A stretch of 64,000 bases of DNA from Galbibacter mesophilus (GTDB taxonomy: Bacteria > Bacteroidota > Bacteroidia > Flavobacteriales > Flavobacteriaceae). The DNA lies in contig NZ_JAMQVC010000003.1 of NCBI RefSeq assembly GCF_023721415.1, forward strand, positions 62,001 to 126,000. The letters run 5' to 3'. Below, one piece after another: positions 59,817 to 64,000 of the stretch. The position numbers and the translations under genes are program-made. The notes under the pieces were generated by a model. The model did no database searches. It was given only the letters and a program-made list of their open reading frames with translations, and was not told the origin of the DNA. Positions within the stretch are counted from its first letter, which is position 1. The number at the start of each line of letters is the position of its first letter.

Positions 59817-59849
59817 TGGAGTGCTTTAGAATAGCATTTTTGTTTTTTC

Positions 59850-59985
59850 GCCTAACGGTCTCGGTTATGAGTAGTTACATGGTTTAGTACGGACTTTTGC
59901 AAGTACACAATAAACTGAACATCCGCGAGGACTTTCAGATGTAGGCGAGAACTAGAAATAAACTATATACGATGTCGGCATTCTG
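59850..59985. repeat. Structured intergenic element A (cassette-boundary-like)
   Basis: This 136-bp element starts GCCTAACGGTCTCGG and ends ACTATATACGATGTCGGC with a short AT tail. It shares both ends and its length with element B at 61377-61510: AACGGTCT on the left and ATATACG(A/T)TGT on the right. Inner arms TAGTT (59872-59876) and AACTA (59950-59954) can pair. It lies between bshA and the exonuclease gene. Confidence 0.55.
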
Positions 59986-59989
59986 TTTT

Positions 59990-61291
59990 TTAAATTTTTT
60001 TGAGTTTCCTTAATTCCCAAAAACATTTTGTCAACGCTTCAACATCATTTTCCGCATTATGAGCACCATAAAAATCATCTTTAAACAACTTATAATACAA
60101 ATCTGATAATTTTGGCCATTTATATCCTTTTGAACCATTATTTATAGCACAGAGATTTGTTGTTTTTTTCATAGTGCATATTTTATGTTTTTTGGGTATT
60201 GGGTTATAAATTTTATTTCTTAATAATTCGGCTCCTAAAATTTTTTCATCAAAGTCAAAATTATGTGAGATAAGAAAATCGGCTTTTTCAATTATAGAAC
60301 AGAATATATTAAGCGCTTTGGAAATATCATATCCATTTTTTATTGCACTTTCATTTGAAATACCATGAATATTTGTAGATGATATAGGAATTGAATAATC
60401 TTTTGGTTTTATGAGAAAATTTCCGGTAGAAATTTTATTACCCCGATTATCAGTTAGTATATAAGCCAATTGGACCATTCTAGGCCAATTGTCTAAATCT
60501 GTAATAGGTGCATTGAAATTGTTCGGAAGTCCAGTCGTTTCTGTGTCAAAAAAAAGATAAGTTTCATTTTTGTTTCTATTATTATCAAAATTATTCTTTC
60601 TAGTTTCAGATTTAAAAAGATTATAGTCCGATTCGGTTAATTTATTCTTGATAATAATGTCCTTAGGTTTGTCCTCAACAAATTGAATTCTTGTATACCT
60701 ATAAATTTTATCTCCAGAACTCCTATCTAATATGTACTCATCTGAATGTTCAGTTTTTAAAAAATTAATATTTTTTGAAAAATGATATTCTTTAATTATT
60801 TCATTAACATCATCATGTTCAGGTAGTTCATTTGTCCAATACTCAAAGTCTTGTATTTGAGATTCACAAAATTCAGTAACGGAAATCGTAGGTGTTAAAA
60901 TTTTGTTTTTTTTTGTATAAATTTTTTTAATGGGATGAATATGACAGGCAACTGTATCGTGCGTATTATCAACATCATCATTATACCAATCCTTAATGAG
61001 ATCCATTAATTGAGATGAATCTATTGTCAACTCTGGAAAAGTTGGTAATAATTCATTAGGCTCAATAAATAAGTAGTTGAATAATAAAACTTCATCACTC
61101 GAATTGTTATCATCTATTATATTACTTCCAACCAAAGTGCGATGACCCAAAAACTTTTTTTGGGCTAACTCTATTTCTAGTAAATCTCGTGACAAGACCC
61201 TAAAACTAGTGATAAATAATGTGTTGGATTTTAAAATTTTTAATCTTTTAAGCAAGGCTTTATGCAATGTTTTTCTTCTAATTAATTTCAT
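59990..61291 (-). CDS. DEDDh 3'-5' exonuclease-domain protein with a novel N-terminal region
   Basis: This 433-residue protein has an exonuclease domain at about residues 245-430, with ExoI/ExoII/ExoIII motifs FFDTETTGLP, SHNFDFDEKIL and HNAENDVEAL (the last His-x4-Asp). This is the DEDDh type seen in DnaQ. The first 240 residues, beginning MKLIRRKTLHKALLKRLKIL, match no family I recognise and are Asn/Asp/Lys/Ile-rich. Codon use is much more AT-rich than in upstream housekeeping genes. It is bracketed by elements A and B. It may be part of the neighbouring defence region or an independent cassette; the sequence does not decide. Confidence 0.78.
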   Translation of the reverse strand: MKLIRRKTLHKALLKRLKILKSNTLFITSFRVLSRDLLEIELAQKKFLGHRTLVGSNIIDDNNSSDEVLLFNYLFIEPNELLPTFPELTIDSSQLMDLIKDWYNDDVDNTHDTVACHIHPIKKIYTKKNKILTPTISVTEFCESQIQDFEYWTNELPEHDDVNEIIKEYHFSKNINFLKTEHSDEYILDRSSGDKIYRYTRIQFVEDKPKDIIIKNKLTESDYNLFKSETRKNNFDNNRNKNETYLFFDTETTGLPNNFNAPITDLDNWPRMVQLAYILTDNRGNKISTGNFLIKPKDYSIPISSTNIHGISNESAIKNGYDISKALNIFCSIIEKADFLISHNFDFDEKILGAELLRNKIYNPIPKKHKICTMKKTTNLCAINNGSKGYKWPKLSDLYYKLFKDDFYGAHNAENDVEALTKCFWELRKLKKI

Positions 61292-61376
61292 AAAAAAAAT
61301 TAGTATTTATAACAATTCTGATTTTCCTAAAATCTCTGCTATTTTTTAATTTCTAAATATTCTCCGATAATGAATG

Positions 61377-61510
61377 CCAACGGTCTGGAATAAGCATAGT
61401 AGCGGATTTTACACACTAACTTTTCAGTTAAACAAAGACCTATGATTTATTAATTTTCTTTAGTTTAAGCACTTAACCCGCTATTTTTTATATACGTTGT
61501 TGTAAACTGT
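61377..61510. repeat. Structured intergenic element B (cassette-boundary-like)
   Basis: This 134-bp element starts GCCAACGGTCTGGAATAAGC and ends TTTATATACGTTGTTGTA. Outer CAACG/CGTTG and inner TAGCGG (61401-61406)/CCGCTA (61479-61484) arms can pair. It shares ends and length with element A. It lies between the exonuclease gene and the helicase gene. Confidence 0.55.
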
Positions 61511-61513
61511 GCT

Positions 61514-62536
61514 TTATTCCAATAGTTTTTCACTTGCTAAATAGCAGTTTCCTCTTGTCCTAGATAGAGCAACATACAGTTTATTTTTTGTTCTGCTTGC
61601 TAATTCTTCCAATTTTCCTTTTTTGTAGAGCTTATATGTCGTTTGATTTAGTAATATGCAAGTATCTATAAAGTCATCTTCTCCTTTACATTCTCCCCAA
61701 TTTTTTGCTTTGAACTTTCTTTTGCTAGCATTGCTATAAACCAATTTAATTGTGGCATCATCATTTAGTTTTTCCACGAGCATTTCCTTGTCTTCAATTA
61801 ATTCAATTTTAGTTTCATCAGTTCTATGAGAGCCAATTTGAATTTTTAGATTATCAGTAATGTAATTACATATTGTAGGACTACATCTCCAGCTATTACT
61901 TAAAGTCTCTAAATCAATTGCAATATTATAATCTTGATATTTTTTTAGATACTTGTTATAGTCCTTGTGCAGATTTGCATTAACATTTCTGTCAAAACTA
62001 GTTACATACGTGTGTTGGTAAAAATCTCCAACAAACAAAAAATTAAGTTTAGATTTTGACAATTCCATAATAAAATTAAAATCGTGGCTTCCCAAATCTT
62101 GTACTTCATCATAATAAAAATGGTCACAGAACTTTTCCAATCTTAATCTAACATCTTCTATTAAATTTTCAAACTCAATCAATTTAGCTAATCTATTATG
62201 GTAAGCATATCCACTTTTGCTTATATATTTTCTTATATCTGAATTTTTCAAGTAATTTGTCTGTTCTGGCGAATTCTCAAGATAAATCCCTTTGAGGTTG
62301 TATTTATAAAACAAGAAAGGTTTGATACAAAAACTATATAGGAAATTGAAATATGTAAAAACTTGAATGTTGTTTGGTAAATAGCCGAATTTTTTAATGA
62401 TGCGCTTACGTATTAAACTTGTATTTGTAATCGTGTATGTAACTAAATAGAATCTTTCTTCAAGATTTAGGCTGTCAATCAGATTGGTTGTTTTTCCTGA
62501 GCCTGCAACAGCTAAGATTAATTTTTTATCAACCAT
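61514..62536 (-). CDS. Compact UvrD-like SF1 helicase, GajB-like
   Basis: This 340-residue SF1 protein has the full set of UvrD motifs: Walker A LAVAGSGKTTN (residues 8-18), Ia (YLVTYTITN), Walker B and II YYDEVQDLGSH, III FVGDFYQHTY, IV/V region SNSWRCSPTIC, and VI LYVALSRTRGN near the C terminus. It is much shorter than PcrA/UvrD (about 700) and shorter than typical GajB (about 490), so 1B/2B inserts are reduced. Its start overlaps the 3' end of the OLD/TOPRIM gene by 19 bp, implying translational coupling. OLD class 2 nucleases paired with UvrD-like helicases define Gabija-type systems. Confidence 0.85.
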   Translation of the reverse strand: MVDKKLILAVAGSGKTTNLIDSLNLEERFYLVTYTITNTSLIRKRIIKKFGYLPNNIQVFTYFNFLYSFCIKPFLFYKYNLKGIYLENSPEQTNYLKNSDIRKYISKSGYAYHNRLAKLIEFENLIEDVRLRLEKFCDHFYYDEVQDLGSHDFNFIMELSKSKLNFLFVGDFYQHTYVTSFDRNVNANLHKDYNKYLKKYQDYNIAIDLETLSNSWRCSPTICNYITDNLKIQIGSHRTDETKIELIEDKEMLVEKLNDDATIKLVYSNASKRKFKAKNWGECKGEDDFIDTCILLNQTTYKLYKKGKLEELASRTKNKLYVALSRTRGNCYLASEKLLE

Positions 62537-64000
62537 TCTATAGCATCTTTTATATAATCAGGAACAATTATTTCGGCACTTTTTTTGTCTAAGATTTCGA
62601 ATGCACATTCAGCTTTTTCATCGAGCATAAATTGCTGAACACTTCTCGTTTTTCTTCCTGGTAAAAATAAATCATTGCAAATTTTTGTATTTGAATTAAA
62701 CATTGAAATCTCGAATGTTGAGATAGAATTATCAGTCTCAGAGAAAACTTGAATATTTGGTGTTATGTATTTAGCATATCTGTCTATGCAGTTCTTTTGA
62801 TAATCTGAATCGTTATCTCTGATAACTGCTGTTTTGATATTTAATAGTTTAGAAATCTCTAAATATCTTTTAAAACTTGTACCATCCACCGAAATTATGT
62901 GAGAATCTAGTTCGTTTGGATTTTTACCTGTTACTATTTCAAAAAATCTTTCTAGCAAAATAAATTCCGCATCTCCTTCTACAAGAATTACTTTTTTAGA
63001 TAAAATGAATTCCAAAATATTGTTATCTGGGGCTTTCATAAAGAAGTTTGCAGTAGAATCTTCTAAATGGGTTAGGTTAATAGATATTGAACTATTACTG
63101 TTCAACAAAATGGTATTTCTTAAATCTAGCCTTGAACTAATTAAATTACTATGAGTAGCAATGAAAATTTGTTTGTTTTTGGAATCATTTATTCTTGAAA
63201 TGAGGTTTTTCATATTCAAATGACTTAAATGATTCTCGGGTTCTTCTAGTAAAACAAAATCTAATTCATTTTGATTTTTTTGTAAAGCAAACTCCGTTTT
63301 TATGAAACATTGACGACCTTTTCCCTTGTTTTGAATATCAATATTTTCCTCGGTTATAGTTAGGTCTGTTACCAAGTTTGATTTCTTGTCATTTTTGATT
63401 CCAAATTGATAATCTCCTGTCTTTTTATTGACGTCAGCTAAAATTTTTTCGCGATAATCATTCTTGTATTTACGATATTCATTTAAGTGTTTGTTTTTTT
63501 CTGAAAGAGAAACGTTGCTATCGTATAAGGTCTTTATATATTGATTTGTAGCATATTCATTATTTATAAGAGTATTATCTAATAGAATATGCTTGAAGTC
63601 TTTTTTGAAACTTAGGTATGGCTGTCCGGAAAATTTGTGAAAAGCAATTGAATAATATTCGAACGGAAAGTTCTGTTTCCCTTCCGCTAAAATTTCAGAA
63701 ATATCCTTGCTTAATTCGTCACGCGGTTCACAAATCAGTGAAAATCCGAATTGGTCAGTTCCAAGAGTATTATTCCTACCGTAATAATCGTCTTTATCTC
63801 CTAGATTATCAAAATACAATTCAACTTTTAGTTTAGGTAGGGTTTCATATGTATTAGTCAGGAAGAAATTTTCAACAGCTTTAGAATTGAATAGTAGATC
63901 TAGTCCTTCGGTTTCAACTCGATTTCTGCTGCCTCTAAAAGCCAAGTCAATAGCTAGTAGTATTGAACTTTTTCCAGATTCATTATCACCAATTAGAACA
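62518..64000 (-). CDS. OLD-family ATPase/TOPRIM nuclease, GajA-like (5' partial)
   Basis: At least 493 residues are visible; the first ones lie beyond the window. The Walker A motif IGDNESGKSS (minus strand, about 63993-63964) shows the frame continues to the window edge, so the TTG-initiated reading at 63945 is not the true start. Further motifs are Walker B FVLLEEPENHLS, the H-loop IFIATHSNLIS, and a C-terminal TOPRIM domain with VILVEGDAEFILLERF and RDNDSDYQ (the DxD motif). This order is that of class 2 OLD nucleases such as GajA, which use ATP or nucleotide sensing to control DNA cleavage. It overlaps the helicase gene by 19 bp. Confidence 0.87.
   Translation of the reverse strand, partial: VLIGDNESGKSSILLAIDLAFRGSRNRVETEGLDLLFNSKAVENFFLTNTYETLPKLKVELYFDNLGDKDDYYGRNNTLGTDQFGFSLICEPRDELSKDISEILAEGKQNFPFEYYSIAFHKFSGQPYLSFKKDFKHILLDNTLINNEYATNQYIKTLYDSNVSLSEKNKHLNEYRKYKNDYREKILADVNKKTGDYQFGIKNDKKSNLVTDLTITEENIDIQNKGKGRQCFIKTEFALQKNQNELDFVLLEEPENHLSHLNMKNLISRINDSKNKQIFIATHSNLISSRLDLRNTILLNSNSSISINLTHLEDSTANFFMKAPDNNILEFILSKKVILVEGDAEFILLERFFEIVTGKNPNELDSHIISVDGTSFKRYLEISKLLNIKTAVIRDNDSDYQKNCIDRYAKYITPNIQVFSETDNSISTFEISMFNSNTKICNDLFLPGRKTRSVQQFMLDEKAECAFEILDKKSAEIIVPDYIKDAIEWLIKN

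Follow-up and report, generated by a model that had tools for sequence, protein, structure and literature searches.

What is the pair of overlapping genes at the end of this stretch of Galbibacter mesophilus DNA, and how is it carried there? The window, by which we mean the whole stretch of 64,000 nucleotides (nt), corresponds to C3:62001-126000 in a 3.77-Mb assembly made up of 8 contigs, and the two genes encode an OLD/TOPRIM ATPase-nuclease and a UvrD-like helicase. In our judgement they are very likely a compact Gabija-like defence pair that is carried as one cassette of an integron-like system of Bacteroidota. Coordinates are those of the window unless a contig or locus is named; genomes, contigs and loci are numbered with G, C and L. 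The pair and the unit that carries it are as follows.

61514..62536, minus strand: compact GajB-like superfamily 1 (UvrD-like) helicase, 340 amino acids (aa), ATG start, apparently without a 2B subdomain by motif spacing
62518..63999, minus strand: GajA-like OLD/TOPRIM ATPase-nuclease, 493 of 519 codons within the window, open reading frame (ORF) open at the edge
61499..64000 in the window, to 64112 on the contig, minus strand: gajAB cassette, 2,614 nt, of which 112 nt lie past the window

A preliminary description of this DNA had reported a nuclease gene and a helicase gene on one strand with a 19-bp overlap, in the order gajA then gajB, cut by the window edge and set in AT-rich DNA. The ORF coordinates bear out the arrangement (overlap at 62518-62536, both ORFs on the minus strand), and relatives have the same one. 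On the extended contig the nuclease gene is intact, with 519 aa and its ATG falling where window 64077 would be, so the truncation belongs to the window edge. The guanine-plus-cytosine content declines at about 60000, from about 0.37-0.42 to 0.27-0.30 beyond it.

The genes in this region are separated from their neighbours by imperfect palindromes of about 140 nt with AAC...GTT cores. We searched for these with covariance models instead of a simple stem scan, which picked up few of the sites along with some false ones. Model R1 was built from 14 aligned sites and model R2 from ten sites, none of this genome, to avoid circularity. R2 found two sites in the 64-kb window, both of them here, and no others at E up to 0.01.

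61368..61506, minus strand: att-like site where the gajAB cassette ends (3') and the neighbouring exonuclease cassette starts (5'); found by R2 (E 9e-11) and by R1
59843..59981, minus strand: att-like site, 3' end of the exonuclease cassette; found by R2 (E 4.4e-10, end 59980) and by R1 (end 59981)

The structure of the sites has 15 pairs, with 95.7% of the cells paired and 7 of the 15 pairs changing on both sides; paired cells, two-sided changes and covariation score were each reached by 0 of 500 shuffles. In three sites of other arrays, folding favours the bottom strand over the top; the same is true of one window site, but not of the site beside gajB. At gathering score Rfam gave no match, and an E-value search of 7 kb gave five weak matches, all on another repeat (L004 10271-10465). 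An intergenic block at L004:10277-10519 consists of CCTAAA/TTTAGG repeats at a 21-nt spacing, some of them inverted; L006 has comparable blocks, and this repeat block is unrelated to the att-like sites.

Read in gene direction, the gajAB cassette begins with 5' TTGTAAACAATGC and ends with 3' GTTTACAAC. Its length from core to core is 2,614 nt in L004, L020, L021, L022 and L055, and the neighbours vary. L019 was left out of this count because its 5' core was not found, near the contig start. Helicase identity is 81-91% in five named loci, one of which encodes it partially, and G121 is a further one (L055). When whole loci are aligned, DNA identity within the cassette is about 80-82%, and outside it there are short similar pieces only. 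The identity begins 26 to 65 nt before gajA in L019, L020, L021 and L022 and stops 17 to 33 nt past the gajB stop in L007, L019, L020 and L022. L007 and L009 begin inside gajA, L009 being another view of the L019 contig, and in L021, which ends soon after gajB, the identity continues through the site. The pair is one cassette in an integron-like array, which the preliminary description had not seen.

The same logic holds across the other arrays. R1 gave 116 matches in 15 of 17 loci; 113 were used and 108 had cores, from which we delimited 91 cassettes of 0.1-3 kb. All 113 sites share the strand of their locus, which makes these head-to-tail arrays, and the largest ORF is oriented along the array in 69 of 73 cassettes. 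The 5' core of a cassette agrees with the complement of its own 3' core at 5.98 of 8 positions, compared with 2.47 for other pairings and 3.03 for the highest of 10,000 permutations of the pairing. Counting repeated core pairs once leaves 63 cassettes with 6.0 against 2.43 (highest permutation 3.17), and excluding the loci that supplied model sites leaves 53 cassettes with 5.98 of 8. At least 5 of 8 positions are complementary in 79 of 91 cassettes, or 55 of 63 with repeats removed. In the 79, GTTR is present in 77 cores, and core position 11 is A throughout the 79 5' cores, and 69 of the 3' cores have G there. The core was taken to be at the last GTT near the site end, a rule that places some cores wrongly: a 2,079-nt cassette of L019 gets 1 of 8 since its first GTT is followed by another, and it was kept in the counts.

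We scanned 72 cassette proteins for cargo (71 of 83 cassette proteins plus one more). Among the best 25 of 126 PADLOC families matched there are models for SIR2, HerA, type II methyltransferase and restriction enzymes, and among the best 25 of 71 Pfam families matched there are BsuBI/PstI and EcoO109I endonucleases, a HigB-like toxin, immunity proteins and nSTAND3; nearly all of these families match one member each.

As a rule, arrays of this kind start from a tyrosine recombinase related to IntI, and this genome has one on another contig.

C4:262497-263618: recombinase of this genome, 376 aa, followed by same-strand sites to near the contig end

In this genome and in near relatives, the recombinase ORFs are 374-388 aa long and score 184-212 bits with the IntI profile TIGR02249, below its 265-bit cut-off; profile positions about 181-237, the region of the additional domain, are unmatched in them. 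The catalytic residues are kept. There are also about 90 extra N-terminal residues, which no Pfam family explains and which may resemble the HARP domain. Of 14 recombinase placements selected from the listed matches, 12 have every site considered within 20 kb downstream and on the same strand; of the two others, one is a broken gene with its sites placed otherwise and one has no sites. By eye, the first cassette core stands soon after the integrase stop in L052 and L054, which bears on the question of an attI. The ORF before the recombinase in this genome and in G256 is presumably leuB. The cut-off of the profile is exceeded in 3 of 10 genomes, namely G365, G537 and G573, which are distant carriers of compact GajB; in these three the full-length compact GajB match and the above-cut-off integron integrase are on different contigs.

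In a tree of 29 sequences, 14 of the new recombinases group with IntI, apart from Xer, with support of 99/98, and the group that they themselves form is weakly supported (76/88). The best-scoring solved structures for the recombinase profile are XerC-like and XerA entries. The tree does not fix the exact placement of the recombinase, because these top-scoring XerA-type entries are absent from it.

Sites and recombinase occur together. Among 60 relatives, 38 genomes have the recombinase (E up to 1e-60), and 36 of these have at least 3 sites; of the 22 without it, 2 do. Among 296 genomes of the phylum, 92 have a recombinase match (E up to 1e-70) and 80 have sites under strict filters, and sites are present in 50 of the 92 compared with 30 of the 204 others. 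The co-occurrence has p 5e-12, or p 1.6e-7 outside the bacterium's own family, and these p values ignore kinship.

Identical cassettes recur in two complete genomes. In one array of G256 (L107, G256:C1:2930001-2950000) a 609-nt cassette is found four times, the copies being 100% identical; cassettes of 679 and 377 nt each occur twice in this genome, and G014 has a 585-nt cassette twice, also at 100% identity. These duplications suggest that cassettes have moved recently. G014, which is one contig, has 57 sites over about 66 kb, all on one strand and with the recombinase at the head (L103-L106, G014:C1:2725001-2800000), and a second cluster of sites near 2215000-2261000. A repeat of about 426 nt stands six times between sites of the G014 array (L103, L105, L106), without complementary ends as scored, and may be another element living in the array.

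A number of results weigh against reading the pair as an integron-like cassette, and several of them concern the window itself. The core upstream of gajA in this genome is mutated, with CATT for the usual CGTT, and R1 did not find the site there. There is no integrase near this copy of the cassette on the extended contig. In folding, the two window sites do not outdo their shuffles, whichever strand is taken (z +1.3, +0.5, -0.5, +0.2), and 35 of 500 shuffles reached the observed value of one more covariation measure, the count of additional pair types. No empty site was found in six genomes of the same genus, a comparison that is uninformative: only the gene before the region was found in them, with no sites in the approximately 10 kb after it, and what follows that gene differs in all six. 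Across the arrays, 12 of 91 cassettes fall below 5 of 8, of which six are copies of the 426-nt repeat and one has a misplaced core, and the canonical GTTRRRY is present in only 7 of the 79 cores. For the recombinase, the IntI insert is missing in the four new sequences that we aligned beside IntI, and archaeal XerA, which is not in the tree, outscores IntI4 against the recombinase profile. Among the 296 genomes, 30 have sites without the recombinase and 42 have the recombinase without sites. The best match misses the N-terminal part in 56 of the 92 genomes and reaches it in 36; sites are present in 22 of these 36 and in 28 of the 56, compared with the 30 of 204 lacking a recombinase match.

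The points on the window copy would fit an ordinary defence hotspot, where the stem-loops are repetitive extragenic palindromic (REP)-like repeats or terminators and the pair arrived by horizontal transfer without any site-specific recombinase. The missing integrase, the poor folding of the two sites and the variable DNA in the six related genomes are all compatible with that. We nevertheless consider a hotspot highly improbable. Repeats of that sort would hardly leave each gene with a 5' end that complements its own 3' end, nor would they be expected to produce a unit of equal length in five genomes, one-strand arrays with one recombinase family at their head, or identical cassettes that are cut core to core.

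It is also very unlikely, in our view, that the cassettes are real but owe their movement to XerCD or to homologous recombination at similar sites, with the recombinase as a passenger. Several sites are indeed similar enough for homologous exchange, XerC/D-like proteins are also present in these genomes, and the 30 genomes with sites and no recombinase match point the same way. On the other hand, the recombinase stands at the head of the arrays, and on their strand, in 12 of the 14 selected placements, groups with IntI in the tree and co-occurs with the sites, and the gajAB units keep exact ends despite differing flanking sites.

We therefore keep to the integron-like cassette. The copy in this genome may be fixed in place, because it lies in an array fragment without an adjoining integrase and its upstream core is mutated. 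This genome (G000) has att-like sites within about 5 kb of the end of C2, the end of C3 and both the start and the end of C4. Since the sites lie near four contig ends, its arrays are probably broken in the assembly.

The neighbouring cassette has a gene of its own.

59990..61291, minus strand: neighbouring cassette gene, 433 aa, C-terminal DEDDh 3'-5' exonuclease domain, not part of the pair

The protein has a long N-terminal part without an assigned domain. We considered the exonuclease as a third Gabija gene and rejected it, since another gene follows gajB in L019, L020, L022 and L055, the four relatives in which the next gene was visible, and the exonuclease is its own cassette.

Is the pair Gabija, an anti-phage system whose GajA and GajB form a 4:4 complex? 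PADLOC models for GajA and GajB match the two proteins and are the best match for each: the nuclease has GajA at 1.3e-96 (532-position model) and the helicase has GajB at 4.7e-47 (369-position model) and 4.6e-40 with a 365-position model. In Pfam the nuclease matches OLD-like_TOPRIM at 3e-19. By eye, Walker A, Walker B and an H-loop can be recognised in the GajA-like protein, and its TOPRIM residues E367, D421 and D423 are invariant in 13 of 13 aligned sequences; the active-site residues given for the solved GajA are E379, D432 and D434 (PMC10781630).

In the helicase, the Walker A and DExQD residues are invariant in 9 of 9 aligned sequences. We place motifs I at residues 11-16, II at 143-147 (DEVQD), III at 170-174, IV at 217-223, V at 279-285 and VI at 321-326, with the motif names assigned to invariant alignment positions. 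Motifs I, II, III, IV and VI had been claimed for this protein and are all located in this way, and motif V is as well. The claim that it lacks most of the 1B and 2B inserts stands for one of the two. Because 55 residues separate motifs IV and V, the 2B subdomain appears to be gone, whereas about 65 residues are left by eye in the place of 1B, which would make 1B shortened and not mostly lost. In the solved GajB of Bacillus cereus VD045, 2B has 103 residues (314-416) and 1B has 83 (PMC10681800). Going by motif spacing, then, the four subdomains of the solved GajB (1A, 1B, 2A and 2B) would not all be present here, 2B being the missing one. A 340-aa helicase might be a remnant of a longer one, and we regard that as unlikely because five other loci also carry 340-aa helicases at 82-91% identity.

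The helicase had further been called unusually compact, and this did not hold up: PADLOC has the 365- and 369-position GajB models, and tblastn against plasmids found relatives of the helicase on 1,810 of 72,556 records, 1,741 of which cover at least 80% of the query, all below 60% identity. The GajB model was matched (1e-10) in 12 of 299 genomes of the same family, 3 of the 12 exceeding 150 bits over nearly the whole compact model, and in 19 of 395 genomes of a phylum sample, 4 of them above 150 bits; this genome is included in both sets of high scorers. Compact pairs of OLD nuclease and helicase are common on enterobacterial plasmids. One of them, in L161 (Escherichia coli plasmid NZ_CP102697.1), lies beside a vapBC-type pair and is annotated as 'AAA family ATPase' and 'helicase UvrD'.

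The name Gabija is only partly secured. PADLOC profiles and gene order support it, while the helicase sequence gave 0 matches to the solved VD045 GajB at E up to 1, and none of the 31 matches of a helicase profile search was named GajB in a database that holds VD045 GajB. As a control, a long flavobacterial GajB finds the solved VD045 GajB at 1e-9. For the nuclease, none of the best 60 of 64 profile matches was named GajA. Judged by sequence, the pair is a separate compact lineage, and we call it 'compact Gabija-like' because its helicase finds no solved GajB by sequence.

That leaves some room for the pair being a class 2 OLD nuclease-helicase unit that serves repair or acts against plasmids, and not an anti-phage Gabija system. 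The absence of a sequence match to the solved GajB and the missing 2B fit such a unit, as does the fact that the relatives are common on plasmids, 1,135 of the 1,810 records being predicted conjugative, where they could serve competition between elements. Against it, the best PADLOC matches of the two proteins are GajA and GajB, and similar cassettes carry restriction-modification, SIR2 and HerA models. We rate this alternative as rather unlikely and retain a defence role for the compact Gabija-like pair.

If we are right, the system would work in the following way. The recombinase would excise and insert cassettes at the att-like sites. GajA, with its ABC ATPase and TOPRIM domains, would cut invading DNA, as its homologs suggest, and GajB would dock through the 1B region and act as an ATP-driven sensor or regulator. 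A classical UvrD-type unwinding activity is unlikely for the compact GajB because its 2B subdomain appears to be missing. The contact between GajA and GajB is made by 1B in the solved complex as described in PMC10781630, and the passages of PMC10681800 on VD045 GajB report that no unwinding was seen in that study. We infer from these two points that a sensor or regulator role would fit a GajB without 2B. A natural GajB of this kind makes the question of whether GajB needs to unwind DNA directly testable.

More broadly, our results suggest an overlooked gene-capture system in the relatives of this bacterium. We think it likely that Bacteroidota have their own widespread class of integrons, in which the integrase is related to IntI, lacks the additional domain and often has a new N-terminal domain, and in which the attC-like sites have a long cassette-specific core. 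Such integrons would circulate defence genes including compact Gabija-like pairs, and would escape present integron finders. In an open-access library, as covered by titles, starts of abstracts and passages and with subscription papers and outside preprints excluded, we found no description of arrays of this kind. For Bacteroidetes proper, the paper on IntegronFinder 2.0 reports elements with an integrase only and a single complete integron, that of Salinibacter ruber (PMC9024848). An intI is listed for the Bacteroidetes/Chlorobi group (PMC2426708), and Bacteroidota are named among integron-bearing phyla in a review (PMC8618304) and in a research paper (PMC9668308). The main text of PMC8352920 does not have the word Bacteroid-, and none is included in its listed taxon models. 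The additional domain is called necessary for integron recombination in PMC9668308, and according to a passage of PMC8138268 the insertion is not fully conserved in an integron-like subgroup. If this class is real, there is a gene-capture platform in a large phylum that finders relying on the additional domain and GTTRRRY would probably overlook. It would also account for the passage of a small defence module, as an exact unit, from one bacterium to a distant one, and it would offer an integrase that may function despite lacking a domain reported as necessary.

Compared with known systems, the pair is closest in plan to the Gabija of B. cereus VD045, where an OLD ABC-ATPase/TOPRIM nuclease likewise precedes a UvrD-like helicase that has Walker A and DExQD motifs. 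It differs in that GajB is 340 aa here and 494 aa there, apparently lacks 2B by motif spacing, and has no detectable sequence match to the solved GajB. The class 2 OLD and UvrD pairs of enterobacterial plasmids have proteins of 521 and 340 aa from overlapping genes, a helicase about 41% identical over its full length and the same two best PADLOC models for each protein. The setting differs in the one example examined, a pair on an IncF-type plasmid that has vapBC-type genes on one side and an IS1 element on the other.

The arrays are most like integrons, both sedentary chromosomal ones and clusters of attC sites lacking integron-integrases (CALINs). They share one-strand arrays, attC-like palindromes with AAC/GTT cores, complementary cassette ends, an IntI-related integrase at the array head and a cargo of defence and toxin-antitoxin genes. 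One-strand arrays next to an integrase are seen in relatives and, in this genome, at C4 but not at the window copy. They differ from integrons in an integrase without the IntI additional domain, with the roughly 90 extra N-terminal residues in near relatives, and in a core of GTTR plus a cassette-specific stretch where integrons have GTTRRRY. With XerA, XerC and XerD the array recombinase shares its catalytic domain, and it differs from them in its extra N-terminal part and in being tied to cassette arrays; the XerC/D-like proteins of the phylum stand apart from it in the tree.

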